Source: Mariniflexile sp. TRM1-10 (lineage in GTDB: Bacteria; Bacteroidota; Bacteroidia; Flavobacteriales; Flavobacteriaceae). From it: a stretch of DNA of 64,000 nt. Below are positions 49,382 to 53,101 of this stretch, piece after piece. The translations under genes were made by a program, and so were the position numbers. The DNA lies in the NCBI RefSeq assembly GCF_003425985.1, contig NZ_CP022985.1, positions 905,501-969,500 of the forward strand, given 5' to 3'. The notes under the pieces are model-generated. The model ran no database searches. It was given only the letters and a program-made list of their open reading frames with translations, and was not told the origin of the DNA. Position 1 is the first letter of the stretch, and every line of letters starts with the position of its first letter.

Positions 49382-49792
49382 CTAATCAATATCATCATCT
49401 TCATCATCCTCCTCATCGTAATCTGAATCGGCATCATCATCGTCTTCACTATCGTCATCGTCATCCTCCAATTTAGGTTTTTTAACTACGTCATCATCGT
49501 CGTCGTCATCTAAATTTGCATCAGCATCGTCAACTTTAACTTCTTCAAAATCATCATCAGCAACATCAGCATCGTCATCGCCGAAGTCTTCCATTGCTTG
49601 TACCAGTCGTTTCCCTACTTTTACTAAATAAATAGTATCATCTGTACGAACTTCTACTGCTTCAATGATTTCGTTTTGGGCATTTCTAAAAGAAATAATA
49701 TCTGTTTCATCGTATCCATCGGGAAACTTTTCAACAAGAAGATTTAATATATCTTCATTTAATTTTTTGTAATCTACAATTTTGCGTAACAT
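49382..49792 (-). CDS. Protein with hyperacidic Asp-rich tail
   Basis: 136 residues. The first about 70 form a small folded part (VDYKKLNEDILNLLVEKFPDGYDETDI, AVEVRTDDTIYLVKVGKRLVQAME); from residue 73 on nearly every position is Asp or Glu. Such tails bind cations or basic proteins. Encoded mainly by GAT/GAC/GAA-type codons (ATC/ATCATC on the plus strand), so the array could be unstable. 16 bases behind the deoxyhypusine-synthase homologue. No name can be given. Confidence 0.75.
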   Translation of the reverse strand: MLRKIVDYKKLNEDILNLLVEKFPDGYDETDIISFRNAQNEIIEAVEVRTDDTIYLVKVGKRLVQAMEDFGDDDADVADDDFEEVKVDDADANLDDDDDDDVVKKPKLEDDDDDSEDDDDADSDYDEEDDEDDDID

Positions 49793-49808: not shown

Positions 49809-50792
49809 TTATTGGTCTAACAAATATGCAAAAATTAATGGAGCAACAATAGTTGCATCGCTTTCTATTATATATTTTGGGGTATCTATATCTAATTTAC
49901 CCCACGTTATTTTTTCGTTTGGTACGGCGCCGGAGTACGAACCATAGCTGGTTGTTGAGTCACTTATTTGGCAAAAATAACTCCAAAAAGGGATGTCGTG
50001 CATTTCCATATCTTGGTAAAGCATTGGCACTACACATATTGGAAAATCGCCAGCTATACCACCTCCAATTTGGAAAAAACCAACGCCTTTTCCACCTGAA
50101 TTTTTCGGATACCAATCGGCTAACCACATCATGTATTCAATACCACTTTTGGTAGTTGACGCTTTTAATTCACCTTTAATACAGTAAGATGCAAAAATAT
50201 TGCCCATGGTGCTGTCTTCCCAACCTGGAACTACAATTGGTAAGTTTTTTTCGGCTGCGGCAACCATCCAAGAATCTTTAGGGTCGATCTCGTAATATTG
50301 TTTTAAAACGCCGGAGTTTATCATTTGATACATAAATTCATGTGGAAAGTAGCGTTCCCCCGATTTGTCTGCTTTATTCCAAATATCAAACAAATGGGAT
50401 TGTAAACGCCTAAACGCTTCTTCTTCTGGAATACACGTATCGGTAACGCGGTTATAATGGTTTTCCAATAAATCCCATTCTTCTTGTGGTGATAAATCTC
50501 TATAATTTGGGACTCTTTTATATGAATTATGAGCAACCAAATTCATAATATCTTCTTCAAGATTTGCACCTGTACAAGAAATAATATGAATTTTATCTTG
50601 ACGTATCATTTCTGCCAACGATTTGCCTAGCTCTGCGGTACTCATCGCTCCAGCTAGGGTTACCATCATTTTCCCGTCTTCTAACAAATGCGTTTCGTAA
50701 CCTTTTGCGGCATCGACTAAAGCAGCAGCATTAAAATGTAAATAATTTTTTTCTATGAATTGTGATATGGGTCCTTTAGTACTCATCGTCAT
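49809..50792 (-). CDS. Deoxyhypusine synthase family protein
   Basis: 327 residues. Family features: MMVTLAGAMSTAELGKSLAEM, ISCTGANLEEDIMNLV, GVGFFQIGGGIAGDFPI, WSYFCQISDSTTSYGSYSGAVPNEKITWGK, where the WGK lysine (about residue 299) aligns with the lysine that forms the enzyme intermediate in deoxyhypusine synthases. Bacteria do not have eIF5A, so a polyamine role (for example homospermidine-type aminobutyl transfer) is more likely. Overlaps the speB-like gene by about 17 bases (or 11 from the internal ATG at 50786) and closes the polyamine operon. Confidence 0.88.
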   Translation of the reverse strand: MTMSTKGPISQFIEKNYLHFNAAALVDAAKGYETHLLEDGKMMVTLAGAMSTAELGKSLAEMIRQDKIHIISCTGANLEEDIMNLVAHNSYKRVPNYRDLSPQEEWDLLENHYNRVTDTCIPEEEAFRRLQSHLFDIWNKADKSGERYFPHEFMYQMINSGVLKQYYEIDPKDSWMVAAAEKNLPIVVPGWEDSTMGNIFASYCIKGELKASTTKSGIEYMMWLADWYPKNSGGKGVGFFQIGGGIAGDFPICVVPMLYQDMEMHDIPFWSYFCQISDSTTSYGSYSGAVPNEKITWGKLDIDTPKYIIESDATIVAPLIFAYLLDQ

Positions 50793-51714
50793 CGTTAAAT
50801 TTTGAAGCGTTATTTTTTTGTTTTGTATTATCGTAGGTATTATCGTAATCGTCGCCGACCTCTTGGCCCATAAATTTATAACTTAACATTTTATAATACA
50901 ATTTTGCTGCTAAAAAATCGGAAGCTTTTTGTTTTACACTTGGGTACAAATCAACAATATCAAAGCCAACCACATTTTTTTCTGCAAAAACTTGCTTTAA
51001 GAAATCTAAAGTTTCATACCAGAATAAACCACCTGGTAAAGGTGAGCAGGTATTTGGCATGATGGAAATATCCAAACCACTTAGACTAAAATTAATAAAT
51101 ACATTATCTGTCATTTGGTCTATGGCAGAATCTATCCATGTATCATCAACCGCCATTTCGTGTGCAAAATAGGTTTTATCGATATCGGCTATTGTTTTTT
51201 CTTTCGCGCTCATAGAGCGAATACCCACTTGTATTAAATTGGTTGTTTGGCTGGCTTCATACAGCGCGCAGGCATTATTAACAGAAGATCCGTCATGGCT
51301 TTTTTGCAAATGGGAGTGCGCACCAATGTGCAATACCGTTAGACTTGGAAACATGTCGTTAAAAGCTCGAATGGTTCCTATAGAAACTGCATGTTCACCG
51401 CCAAAAATGGTTACGAACTTATTCTTCTTGATGTATTTTTTTGTGGTTTGATGAACAGCTTCCACTAACACTTCAGGTGTGGCATTCTCTTCAACCGGAT
51501 CTACTAAATAAACACCTTGTTGGTAAACTTCCGTATCTGTTTCTATATCGTAAAGTTCCATGTTATTTGAAGCATTTAAAAACGCTTCTGGTCCTTTGTC
51601 TGCTCCTTTTTGTACTGTACTTGTTCCATCATAAGGCACAGGAATTAAAACTATTTTTGATTGTTCTAATTTTGAAAACTCTTCTGGAACTCCTGCATAT
51701 GTGTTATTTGTCAT
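50776..51714 (-). CDS. speB: Agmatinase (ureohydrolase) homologue with substituted metal ligands
   Basis: 312 residues, colinear with ureohydrolases: VPYDGTSTVQKGADKGPEAFL, IFGGEHAVSIGTIRAF, LIQVGIRSMS, PNTCSPLPGGLFWYETLDFL. Of the six usual metal ligands only His108 (GGEH) and His133 remain: the DAHxD motif reads GAHSH (Gly131, His135) and the DxD motif reads SLS (Ser210, Ser212). The substrate-site Glu near FDIVDLYPS is Asp. An extra acidic tail of about 25 residues ends the protein. The frame is intact and overlaps both neighbours, so it is expressed but probably not an active agmatinase; a structural or regulatory partner is possible. Confidence 0.88.
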   Translation of the reverse strand: MTNNTYAGVPEEFSKLEQSKIVLIPVPYDGTSTVQKGADKGPEAFLNASNNMELYDIETDTEVYQQGVYLVDPVEENATPEVLVEAVHQTTKKYIKKNKFVTIFGGEHAVSIGTIRAFNDMFPSLTVLHIGAHSHLQKSHDGSSVNNACALYEASQTTNLIQVGIRSMSAKEKTIADIDKTYFAHEMAVDDTWIDSAIDQMTDNVFINFSLSGLDISIMPNTCSPLPGGLFWYETLDFLKQVFAEKNVVGFDIVDLYPSVKQKASDFLAAKLYYKMLSYKFMGQEVGDDYDNTYDNTKQKNNASKFNDDDEY

Positions 51715-53101
51715 AACCTAAAATTTTAAGTAAGTCTTCACTTTTTTGTTGTTCACTGAATAATTCTGTTGTGATGTTTCCATCAGCATCTCTATCTATT
51801 AAAATATGTTTTGGCGATGGTATTAAGCAATGTTGTAAACCACCGTATCCGCCAATAGTTTCTTGATAAGCTCCTGTATTGAAAAACCCAATGTACAATG
51901 GTTTTTCTTTATTATATTTTGGCAAATATATAGCATTCATGTGCTGTTCGCTATTATAATAATCGTCGCTATCGCAAGTCAATCCACCTAACAAAACACG
52001 TTCGTAACTTTCGTGCCATCTATTAATAGGCAACATTACAAAACGTTTGTTAATGGCCCAAGTATCTGGCAAAGTAGTAATGAAAGAGGAGTTTATCATA
52101 TTCCATTTTTCACGGTCGTTTTGTTGTTTTTGATACAAAACTTCATAAATAGCACCGCCACTTTCACCAACTGTAAAACTTCCAAATTCCGTAAAAATAT
52201 GAGGCACTTCAACTTCTTCTTCTTCACAAACCAATTTTATTTGATTAATGATTTCTCCAACAATATATTCATAATCAAAATCGAAAGCCAAGGAGTTCTT
52301 AATAGGGAAACCACCGCCAATATTCAAACTATCTAAGCTAGGGCAAATACGCTTTAAGCTGGTATATACTTTTAAACATTTTGTTAACTCGTTCCAATAA
52401 TATGCATTGTCTCGAATGCCAGTATTAATGAAAAAATGAAGCATTTTAAGTTTCACTTTTTTGTTTTCTTTAATTTGGCTTCTGTAAAAAGGCAAAATAT
52501 TTTTATAGCCAATACCTAAACGCGAGGTATAAAATTCGAATTTAGGCTCTTCCTCAGAAGCGATACGGATACCAATATTGAATTTTCCTTTAATTTCTTT
52601 TGACAACAAATCAATTTCTTCGTAGTTATCAATAATTGGGATACAATTTTTGTGCCCGTTATTAATTAGCCTAGCTAAGTTAGAAATGTATTGATCTCTT
52701 TTAAAACCGTTACTAATTACATAGGTTTTATCGGTTATCTTTCCTTCAGCTTTTAAGCTTTCAACAATATCAATATCAAAAGCAGACGATGTTTCTATAT
52801 GTATATCGTTTTTTAAAGCTTCATCAAGCACATGCTTAAAATGAGAGCTTTTGGTACAATAGCAATAACTGTATTTACCTTTATACTTATTAGCTTTAAT
52901 GGCCTTATCAAACCATCCTTTAGCTCTATTTATATTGTTTGAAATTTGTGGTAAGTACGTAAACTTTAAAGGTGCACCATATGTTTCAACTAAACCTATA
53001 AGGTCTATACCATGGAACTGTAGATGTTTATCGTTTAGATCAAATTCTTCTTGTGGAAAATAAAAAGATTGATTTATTAAATCAATGTATTTGGTGTTCA
53101 T
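51704..53101 (-). CDS. speA: Arginine decarboxylase-type PLP enzyme
   Basis: 465 residues, alanine-racemase-fold group. YGAPLKFTYLPQI and YSYCYCTKSSHFKHVL hold the candidate PLP lysine (Lys84). NIGGGFPIKNSLAFDF and HIFTEFGSFTVGESGGAIYEVL lie in the barrel; GLTCDSDDYY near residue 370 is the C-terminal cysteine/aspartate substrate motif. First gene of the polyamine operon; overlaps the agmatinase-like gene by 11 bases. Decarboxylates arginine to agmatine; lysine or ornithine specificity is less likely given the neighbour. Confidence 0.85.
   Translation of the reverse strand: MNTKYIDLINQSFYFPQEEFDLNDKHLQFHGIDLIGLVETYGAPLKFTYLPQISNNINRAKGWFDKAIKANKYKGKYSYCYCTKSSHFKHVLDEALKNDIHIETSSAFDIDIVESLKAEGKITDKTYVISNGFKRDQYISNLARLINNGHKNCIPIIDNYEEIDLLSKEIKGKFNIGIRIASEEEPKFEFYTSRLGIGYKNILPFYRSQIKENKKVKLKMLHFFINTGIRDNAYYWNELTKCLKVYTSLKRICPSLDSLNIGGGFPIKNSLAFDFDYEYIVGEIINQIKLVCEEEEVEVPHIFTEFGSFTVGESGGAIYEVLYQKQQNDREKWNMINSSFITTLPDTWAINKRFVMLPINRWHESYERVLLGGLTCDSDDYYNSEQHMNAIYLPKYNKEKPLYIGFFNTGAYQETIGGYGGLQHCLIPSPKHILIDRDADGNITTELFSEQQKSEDLLKILGYDK

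Follow-up and report, generated by a model that had tools for sequence, protein, structure and literature searches.

The operon-like run of genes on the minus strand of the Mariniflexile sp. TRM1-10 DNA analysed here (a stretch of 64,000 nucleotides, hereafter the window) raises the question of why a bacterium should keep, at full length, an agmatinase gene whose product lacks four of the six metal ligands of the enzyme. The run is composed of speA, the agmatinase (SpeB) homologue and a gene of the deoxyhypusine synthase (DHS) family (Table 1). The agmatinase ORF overlaps speA by 11 nt and the DHS-family ORF by 17 nt, so that the start codon of the latter lies inside the C-terminal codons of the agmatinase gene; with its 312 aa and these two overlaps, the frame is as undisturbed as the original prediction had it. 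Directly downstream of the DHS gene, on the same strand (49382-49792), there is a 136-aa Asp-rich acidic ORF, which found no match in a Pfam and NCBIfam profile search; an ORF resembling it is also located downstream of DHS in another genome (G134, L147).

Table 1. Genes of the operon and active-site residues of the agmatinase homologue, with their positions in the window and the equivalent residues of E. coli agmatinase.
Feature	Position	Strand	Basis
Arginine decarboxylase-like PLP enzyme (speA), operon start	51704..53101	-	ORF list, profile matches
Degenerate agmatinase (SpeB) homologue, 312 aa, ATG start	50776..51714	-	ORF list, profiles, alignments
DHS-family protein, probable homospermidine synthase, distinct subtype here	49809..50792	-	profiles, tree
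His108, metal-ligand His of GGEH, retained (E. coli His126)	51391..51393	-	translation, alignment
Gly131 for first Asp of DAHxD (E. coli Asp149)	51322..51324	-	translation, alignment
His133, His of DAHxD, retained (E. coli His151)	51316..51318	-	translation, alignment
His135 for last Asp of DAHxD (E. coli Asp153)	51310..51312	-	translation, alignment
Asn147 for proton-shuttle His (E. coli His163, NHACA motif)	51274..51276	-	alignment
Ser210 for first Asp of second motif (E. coli Asp230)	51085..51087	-	translation, alignment
Ser212 for second Asp of second motif (E. coli Asp232)	51079..51081	-	translation, alignment
Asp255 for guanidinium-binding Glu of GFDxVE (E. coli Glu274)	50950..50952	-	translation, alignment

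The window protein is a full-length member of the arginase family (PF00491, E 6e-47), colinear with agmatinases, which passes the NCBIfam agmatinase model TIGR01230 (177.6 bits, cut-off 174.3) and is 70-78% identical to the 73 intact agmatinases found in named flavobacteria among the best 80 of 313 candidate loci. An AlphaFold2 model built from 27 sequences (mean pLDDT 69.7, pTM 0.77) reproduced the arginase core, several loops and the tail being of low confidence, and a Foldseek search with this model ranked agmatinases first (TM 0.71 to 3pzl). Being shallow, the model only confirms the fold, predicting that the arginase fold is kept.

The residues of the active site were placed by alignment to PDB agmatinases, and the E. 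coli equivalents follow the numbering used in PMC8125230. In the window protein the six metal ligands HDHDDD have become HGHHSS: GGEH is kept, DAHxD reads G131-A-H133-S-H135 and SxDxD reads S210-L-S212. The loss of four of the six ligands in a colinear ureohydrolase, together with the readings GGEH, GAHSH, a degenerate SxDxD and Asp in place of Glu, had been predicted from the sequence, and was confirmed by the translation and by the alignment. A further loss, of the His of the NHACA motif (now Asn147), had escaped that prediction, and the equivalents of both catalytic residues, His163 and Glu274, are therefore absent. At the proton-shuttle position, 34 degenerate sequences carry Asn (31), Ser (2) or His (1), and at the position of the guanidinium-binding Glu they carry Glu (24), Asp (8) or Ala (2), while all 84 intact sequences have His and Glu, respectively. 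In E. coli agmatinase, according to PMC8125230, the single changes D153N, H163F and E274A leave about 5%, 3-5% and 1-2% of the activity. Since ligands and catalytic residues are replaced together, and single changes are already enough to cut the activity, the window protein is, judging from its residues, almost certainly inactive as agmatinase.

The altered site could, in principle, bind another metal or substrate and catalyse a new reaction, as the original prediction had also suggested: three His (108, 133 and 135) remain in it, and a Zymomonas arginase is active although some of its motifs are not conserved (PMC6988801). Nevertheless, the dead homologues do not agree on the residues at the substituted positions, unlike what is expected of a new active site, and variability is comparatively high in the segments near the site. 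In the first motif the third position is N or H, and the other two substituted ligand positions are S, N, C or T, with two sequences still having D at one of them. The new chemistry thus found no support, and we regard it as highly improbable.

To establish how widespread the loss is, the window protein was compared with the 80 best-ranking named loci among the 313 candidates. Of these 81 sequences 73 had intact ligands, and the non-intact ones were those of the window, of four Mariniflexile, and of Aestuariibaculum suncheonense, Confluentibacter sediminis and Seonamhaeicola aphaedonensis. In a set of 121 proteins, made up of the query and its 120 best matches out of 8000, 37 were non-intact, 32 of which had lost four ligands or more. 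Losses of this kind are thus common to four Mariniflexile and to neighbouring genera. A sequencing error, or the oddity of a single strain, was ruled out by the four-ligand losses carried by the four named Mariniflexile genomes, and by P0002, which represents a cluster at 99% identity, differs from the window protein in its letters and reads GAHAH and FSLSGLD.

Seven of the eight proteins labelled Mariniflexile among the matches listed were degenerate. The eighth (P0099, M. ostreae) has all six ligands, is 74% identical and is closest to Tamlana-type sequences, so that it may come from a misplaced species or be a replaced gene; being intact and Tamlana-like, it also indicates that the ligand loss does not simply follow the genus name Mariniflexile.

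In a sample of 199 genomes spread evenly over Flavobacteriaceae, 119 had an agmatinase with all six ligands, seven a degenerate one (G000, which is the source genome, G134, G071, G115, G110, G133 and G180) and one a frameshifted one (G061); in seven others (G070, G163, G117, G127, G140, G196 and G015) DHS came after speA without an intervening agmatinase. The remaining 65 genomes of the sample yielded neither such an operon nor an agmatinase. The loss of ligands is graded: one is lost in S. aphaedonensis, two in Confluentibacter (all five genomes of this group read DAHAN) and in G133, and four in Mariniflexile, G071 and Aestuariibaculum. Three of these loci show peculiarities of their own. In G061 (L148, 3672-4611) the agmatinase is split by a frameshift, either an assembly error or a fresh loss, in a genome with no AguA. 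In G180 (L209, 914-3245), which has AguA and is not among the genomes with a DHS match, speA is accompanied by a highly diverged agmatinase with ligands RDHHDD and 54% identity. Finally, in S. aphaedonensis (L079) the agmatinase frame ends just before the DHS start, with no overlap.

If the window protein is inactive, the next question is how agmatine is converted into putrescine in this organism. In the source genome (4.86 Mb, in a single contig) two other PF00491 genes were found, distant from the operon and formimidoylglutamase-like (84.5 and 57.3 bits to hutG), and a second true agmatinase, the speB for which the original prediction had proposed a search, was rejected on this basis. The weaker of the two (~2553 kb; L003:1366-2529; 388 aa, 57 bits) has GGTQD, DSKFD and DLNAV as metal motifs, and looks degenerate too. 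The agmatine deiminase searched for as an alternative was, by contrast, found. Elsewhere in the genome than the speA operon, the reading frames of aguB and aguA adjoin on the same strand, both full-length, and encode an agmatine deiminase (AguA; PF04371, 371.5 bits) and an N-carbamoylputrescine amidase homologue (AguB; TIGR03381, ~325 bits). Both carry what we take to be the catalytic motifs of their families. They also match solved members of these families, AguB with 5.6e-77 to the N-carbamoylputrescine amidohydrolase 5h8i, although they miss the NCBIfam equivalog cut-offs (250.6 versus 381.8 bits for AguA, 325.3 versus 410.25 for AguB). A biosynthetic role of N-carbamoylputrescine amidohydrolase has been shown in Bacteroides thetaiotaomicron, as reported in PMC10135574.

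The presence of AguA accompanies the decay or loss of agmatinase in the sampled genomes. With AguA called from a PF04371 match of more than 300 bits, it was present in 26 of the 199 sample genomes, a further 34 having only weaker matches; it occurred in 13 of the 15 operons in which agmatinase is degenerate, broken or missing (7/8 degenerate or frameshifted, 6/7 with the gene missing) versus 11 of the 119 intact ones, two AguA genomes (G018 and G170) falling outside this comparison. The Fisher test gave p 5.6e-10, a value that ignores kinship. The same was observed in the named set, where, in the 40 genomes searched, AguA was present in 7/7 non-intact versus 1/33 intact cases; the two sets are not independent, as at least five genomes (G134, G115, G049, G153 and G169), recognised by identical match coordinates, are in both. 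Outside the sample, G270 and G354, in which agmatinase is absent, are both AguA-positive. The exceptions without AguA are G061, with its frameshifted gene, and G015, in which agmatinase is missing and the genome is 84% complete. In 11 genomes AguA and an intact agmatinase occur together, so that AguA does not force the loss of agmatinase. A speA tree was built with 80 rows, 78 of which have both traits, and on it the state of agmatinase changes at least 10 times. Only five independent pairs could be drawn on the well-supported branches of this tree; AguA went the same way in 4.4 and the opposite way in 0.0 on average, and with so few pairs the association was not significant in this kinship-aware test (median p 0.125).

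The best-supported reading, which we consider likely, is that the window protein is a pseudoenzyme left by gene displacement, AguA/AguB having taken over while speB decayed or was deleted. SpeA would convert arginine into agmatine, AguA agmatine into N-carbamoylputrescine and AguB the latter into putrescine, from which the DHS-family protein would make homospermidine; since putrescine would be supplied by the AguA/AguB route, SpeB catalysis would be dispensable. Some lineages would then have deleted speB and others be part-way, while Mariniflexile and its neighbours would have kept a folded, non-catalytic SpeB.

A different use of agmatine had been proposed by the original prediction, namely by the DHS-like neighbour. 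If this enzyme had switched to agmatine, making guanidinylated homospermidine as the caldomycin synthase of Thermus does, agmatinase would be unneeded. The DHS of the pseudo-agmatinase lineages is indeed a separate subtype, and the agmatinase beside it is degenerate or missing wherever it was read. In the seven degenerate-operon loci, 29 DHS residues are fixed that are absent or rare in the 73 intact loci, while the same rule gives 0 fixed positions for speA and 2 for agmatinase; the fixed differences of DHS come down to 17 when Flavobacterium and other similar proteins, which form a clade of their own with this subtype, are added (16 rows versus 61). Agmatine homocoupling by a DHS homologue is, moreover, known (PMC10981699). 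On the other hand, the catalytic motifs are kept in both subtypes (each motif is identical in 74 to 78 of 78 rows, with conservative changes in the others), and the scores with the caldomycin synthase model NF002699 are not raised: the window DHS has 84.3 bits, far below the cut-off of 500, and the scores compared were 84.3 and 89.2 versus 91.3, the last being that of an ordinary relative. In the seven sample genomes without agmatinase beside DHS, the DHS is of the ordinary subtype in 7/7 and AguA is present in 6/7; furthermore, Thermus still needs a ureohydrolase to reach homospermidine (PMC10981699). The finding of AguA and the unchanged caldomycin synthase scores led us to demote this switch as the main explanation; with aguA and aguB in the genome it is not needed, and we believe it to be quite unlikely. 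At the base of the Mariniflexile/Flavobacterium subtype we observed the DHS protein of another genome (G296; L197, 2667-3734); the 7.5 kb that were read contained no agmatinase ORF, and a search of this genome gave no AguA.

Displacement by AguA/AguB does not explain by itself why a dead gene is kept. In all 10 genes examined, fully or partly degenerate, the product has 308-313 aa, and, as the frames were taken between stops in these loci, this length is evidence. For the analysis of selection we used a dead set composed of the window gene and those of M. gromovii, M. sp. AS56 and M. fucanivorans (six pairs). All four copies are without the four Asp ligands, and Gly131 and Ser210 are common to all of them, which indicates that much of their divergence followed the ligand loss. 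The six pairs pooled gave dN 0.063, dS 0.74 and dN/dS 0.085. As a control, from all 2628 pairs among the 73 intact loci we took the 66 with dS 0.6-0.9, which are not mutually independent; their median dN/dS was 0.091 and the pooled value 0.098, and each dead pair was equalled or exceeded by 29 to 52 of them. On these substitution rates, the dead copy is under purifying selection, not detectably weaker than that on working copies. A twofold relaxed selection, with active-site segments fivefold looser, had been suggested by a comparison with six hand-picked intact pairs (pooled 0.036) and was withdrawn after this wider control; those six proved unrepresentative, being part of twelve, of which the others ran from 0.036 to 0.147. 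Pairwise values were 0.05-0.10 within Mariniflexile and up to 0.20 between genera, where dS is near-saturated. In the same lineages DHS and speA gave ~0.01-0.04 and 0.01-0.05, respectively, apart from the S. aphaedonensis pairs (up to 0.11 for DHS and 0.075 for speA). Neither stops or frameshifts in the window gene nor a dN/dS near 1 was observed, in agreement with the earlier description of this gene as not an obvious pseudogene.

The constraint is unevenly distributed along the gene. Relative to intact pairs, dN of the dead pairs was 2.6 at residues 21-60, 1.9-2.1 at 201-260 and 1.3-1.4 at 101-160, and fell to 0.5 at 161-220 and 0.2 at 261-300. The entropy per 20 residues, compared between 34 dead and 84 intact sequences, gave dead/intact ratios of 15.8 (21-40), 3.8 (101-120) and 3.6 (221-240), of 1.4 in the DAHxD block, of ~1 at 161-200 and 261-280, and of 0.3-0.4 over the C-terminal 32 residues. 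At the 3' end of the gene dS was 0.35-0.42 versus 0.62-1.33 elsewhere; since dS is low and the DHS start codon lies inside this coding sequence, the constraint here is plausibly at the DNA level, and the translation of the overlapping DHS gene may add it.

These data bear on a further explanation, that of a slow decay without function, in which the apparent constraint would reflect only the need of a co-translated protein to stay folded and its frame open, so as not to aggregate or block DHS translation. It would account for the AguA-bearing relatives that deleted the gene, for the looser segments near the active site, for the low dS where the DHS start overlaps, and for the partial losses in S. 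aphaedonensis (one ligand) and in Confluentibacter and G133 (two). However, a simulation in which only the frame was kept open gave ~25% protein identity at dS 0.75, against the 86-88% observed. In addition, dN/dS does not exceed that between working copies and the constraint is tighter at residues 161-220, Gly131 is common to the window, the four Mariniflexile, G071 and A. suncheonense with synonymous sites near saturation, and the withdrawal of the relaxed-selection result lowers the odds of slow decay slightly, leaving it, in our opinion, possible but doubtful. The simulation also ruled out translational coupling alone as the full reason for retention, and for coupling to DHS we retain a contribution at the 3' end. 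Coming back to displacement by AguA/AguB, the window protein is probably folded and non-catalytic, and may have a residual structural or regulatory role. A scaffold or a regulator is compatible with this pattern of constraint, and with least confidence we propose that the dead SpeB may have been kept because one of the enzymes encoded in its operon still has it as a partner, structural or regulatory.

A specific form of such a partnership would be that of a prozyme, with the dead agmatinase activating or regulating the adjacent DHS subtype and the pair moving between genera as a unit. This is prompted by A. suncheonense, in which speA is native, while DHS goes with Mariniflexile, as the dead agmatinase probably does. 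Its speA is sister to that of G354 (support 99), which has no agmatinase at the locus and an ordinary DHS; its DHS falls inside the Mariniflexile-type clade (support 95); its dead agmatinase groups with the Mariniflexile type with support 99 on all columns and 86/87 when the active-site columns are removed, but in the AU test a grouping with Aestuariivivens was not rejected (p 0.106). The nucleotide identity between A. suncheonense and G354 is 84-97% in speA, 72-78% over the greater part of DHS and 91-95% at the DHS end and just after. This suggests a block exchange of agmatinase and DHS, presumably into Aestuariibaculum; co-transfer is supported for DHS, and only moderately for agmatinase. 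A functional tie between the dead agmatinase and this DHS subtype is possible. In G270, where the same subtype has no agmatinase gene beside it, a strict requirement of the subtype for the dead protein is excluded. Overall, we judge the prozyme unlikely.

Public sources name these proteins agmatinase, and flux models would therefore assign to Mariniflexile the wrong putrescine route. Moreover, agmatinases intact, with one, two or four ligands lost, or deleted, with or without the replacing pathway, form a natural series, which is a tractable setting to study when and why dead enzymes are kept rather than deleted.

SpeB (EC 3.5.3.11; PF00491, TIGR01230) shares with the window protein the fold, the length and the speA-speB-DHS order, and differs from it in the four ligands, the proton-shuttle His and the guanidinium-binding Glu, which are replaced in the latter. 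With its catalytic residues lost in a full-length selected frame, the window protein fits an arginase-family pseudoenzyme. The arginase-like protein of Trypanosoma brucei reportedly has a ureohydrolase fold without a Mn cluster; it belongs to the arginase lineage, in a eukaryote and with no operon, and has in common with the window protein the absence of the binuclear metal site. Pseudoenzymes of this family are already known, this protein and MetCb being two of them, and here the evolutionary setting is unusually informative; in open-access PMC text we found no earlier description of a dead flavobacterial agmatinase. AguA-AguB is a functional replacement not homologous to agmatinase. CdmS of Thermus thermophilus is a DHS-family enzyme of an agmatine-fed homospermidine pathway (PMC10981699); the window DHS, however, scores far below the CdmS model, in a genome that has AguA/AguB. 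MetCb, the metal-free pseudoenzyme subunit of metformin hydrolase, is likewise a protein of the arginase family that persists with its ligands lost and, according to PMC11271267, pairs with an active homologue from its own cluster. In the window there is no adjacent active arginase-family gene, the neighbours being speA and DHS, and the flavobacterial series lets one ask whether dead ureohydrolases act as partners, as MetCb does.
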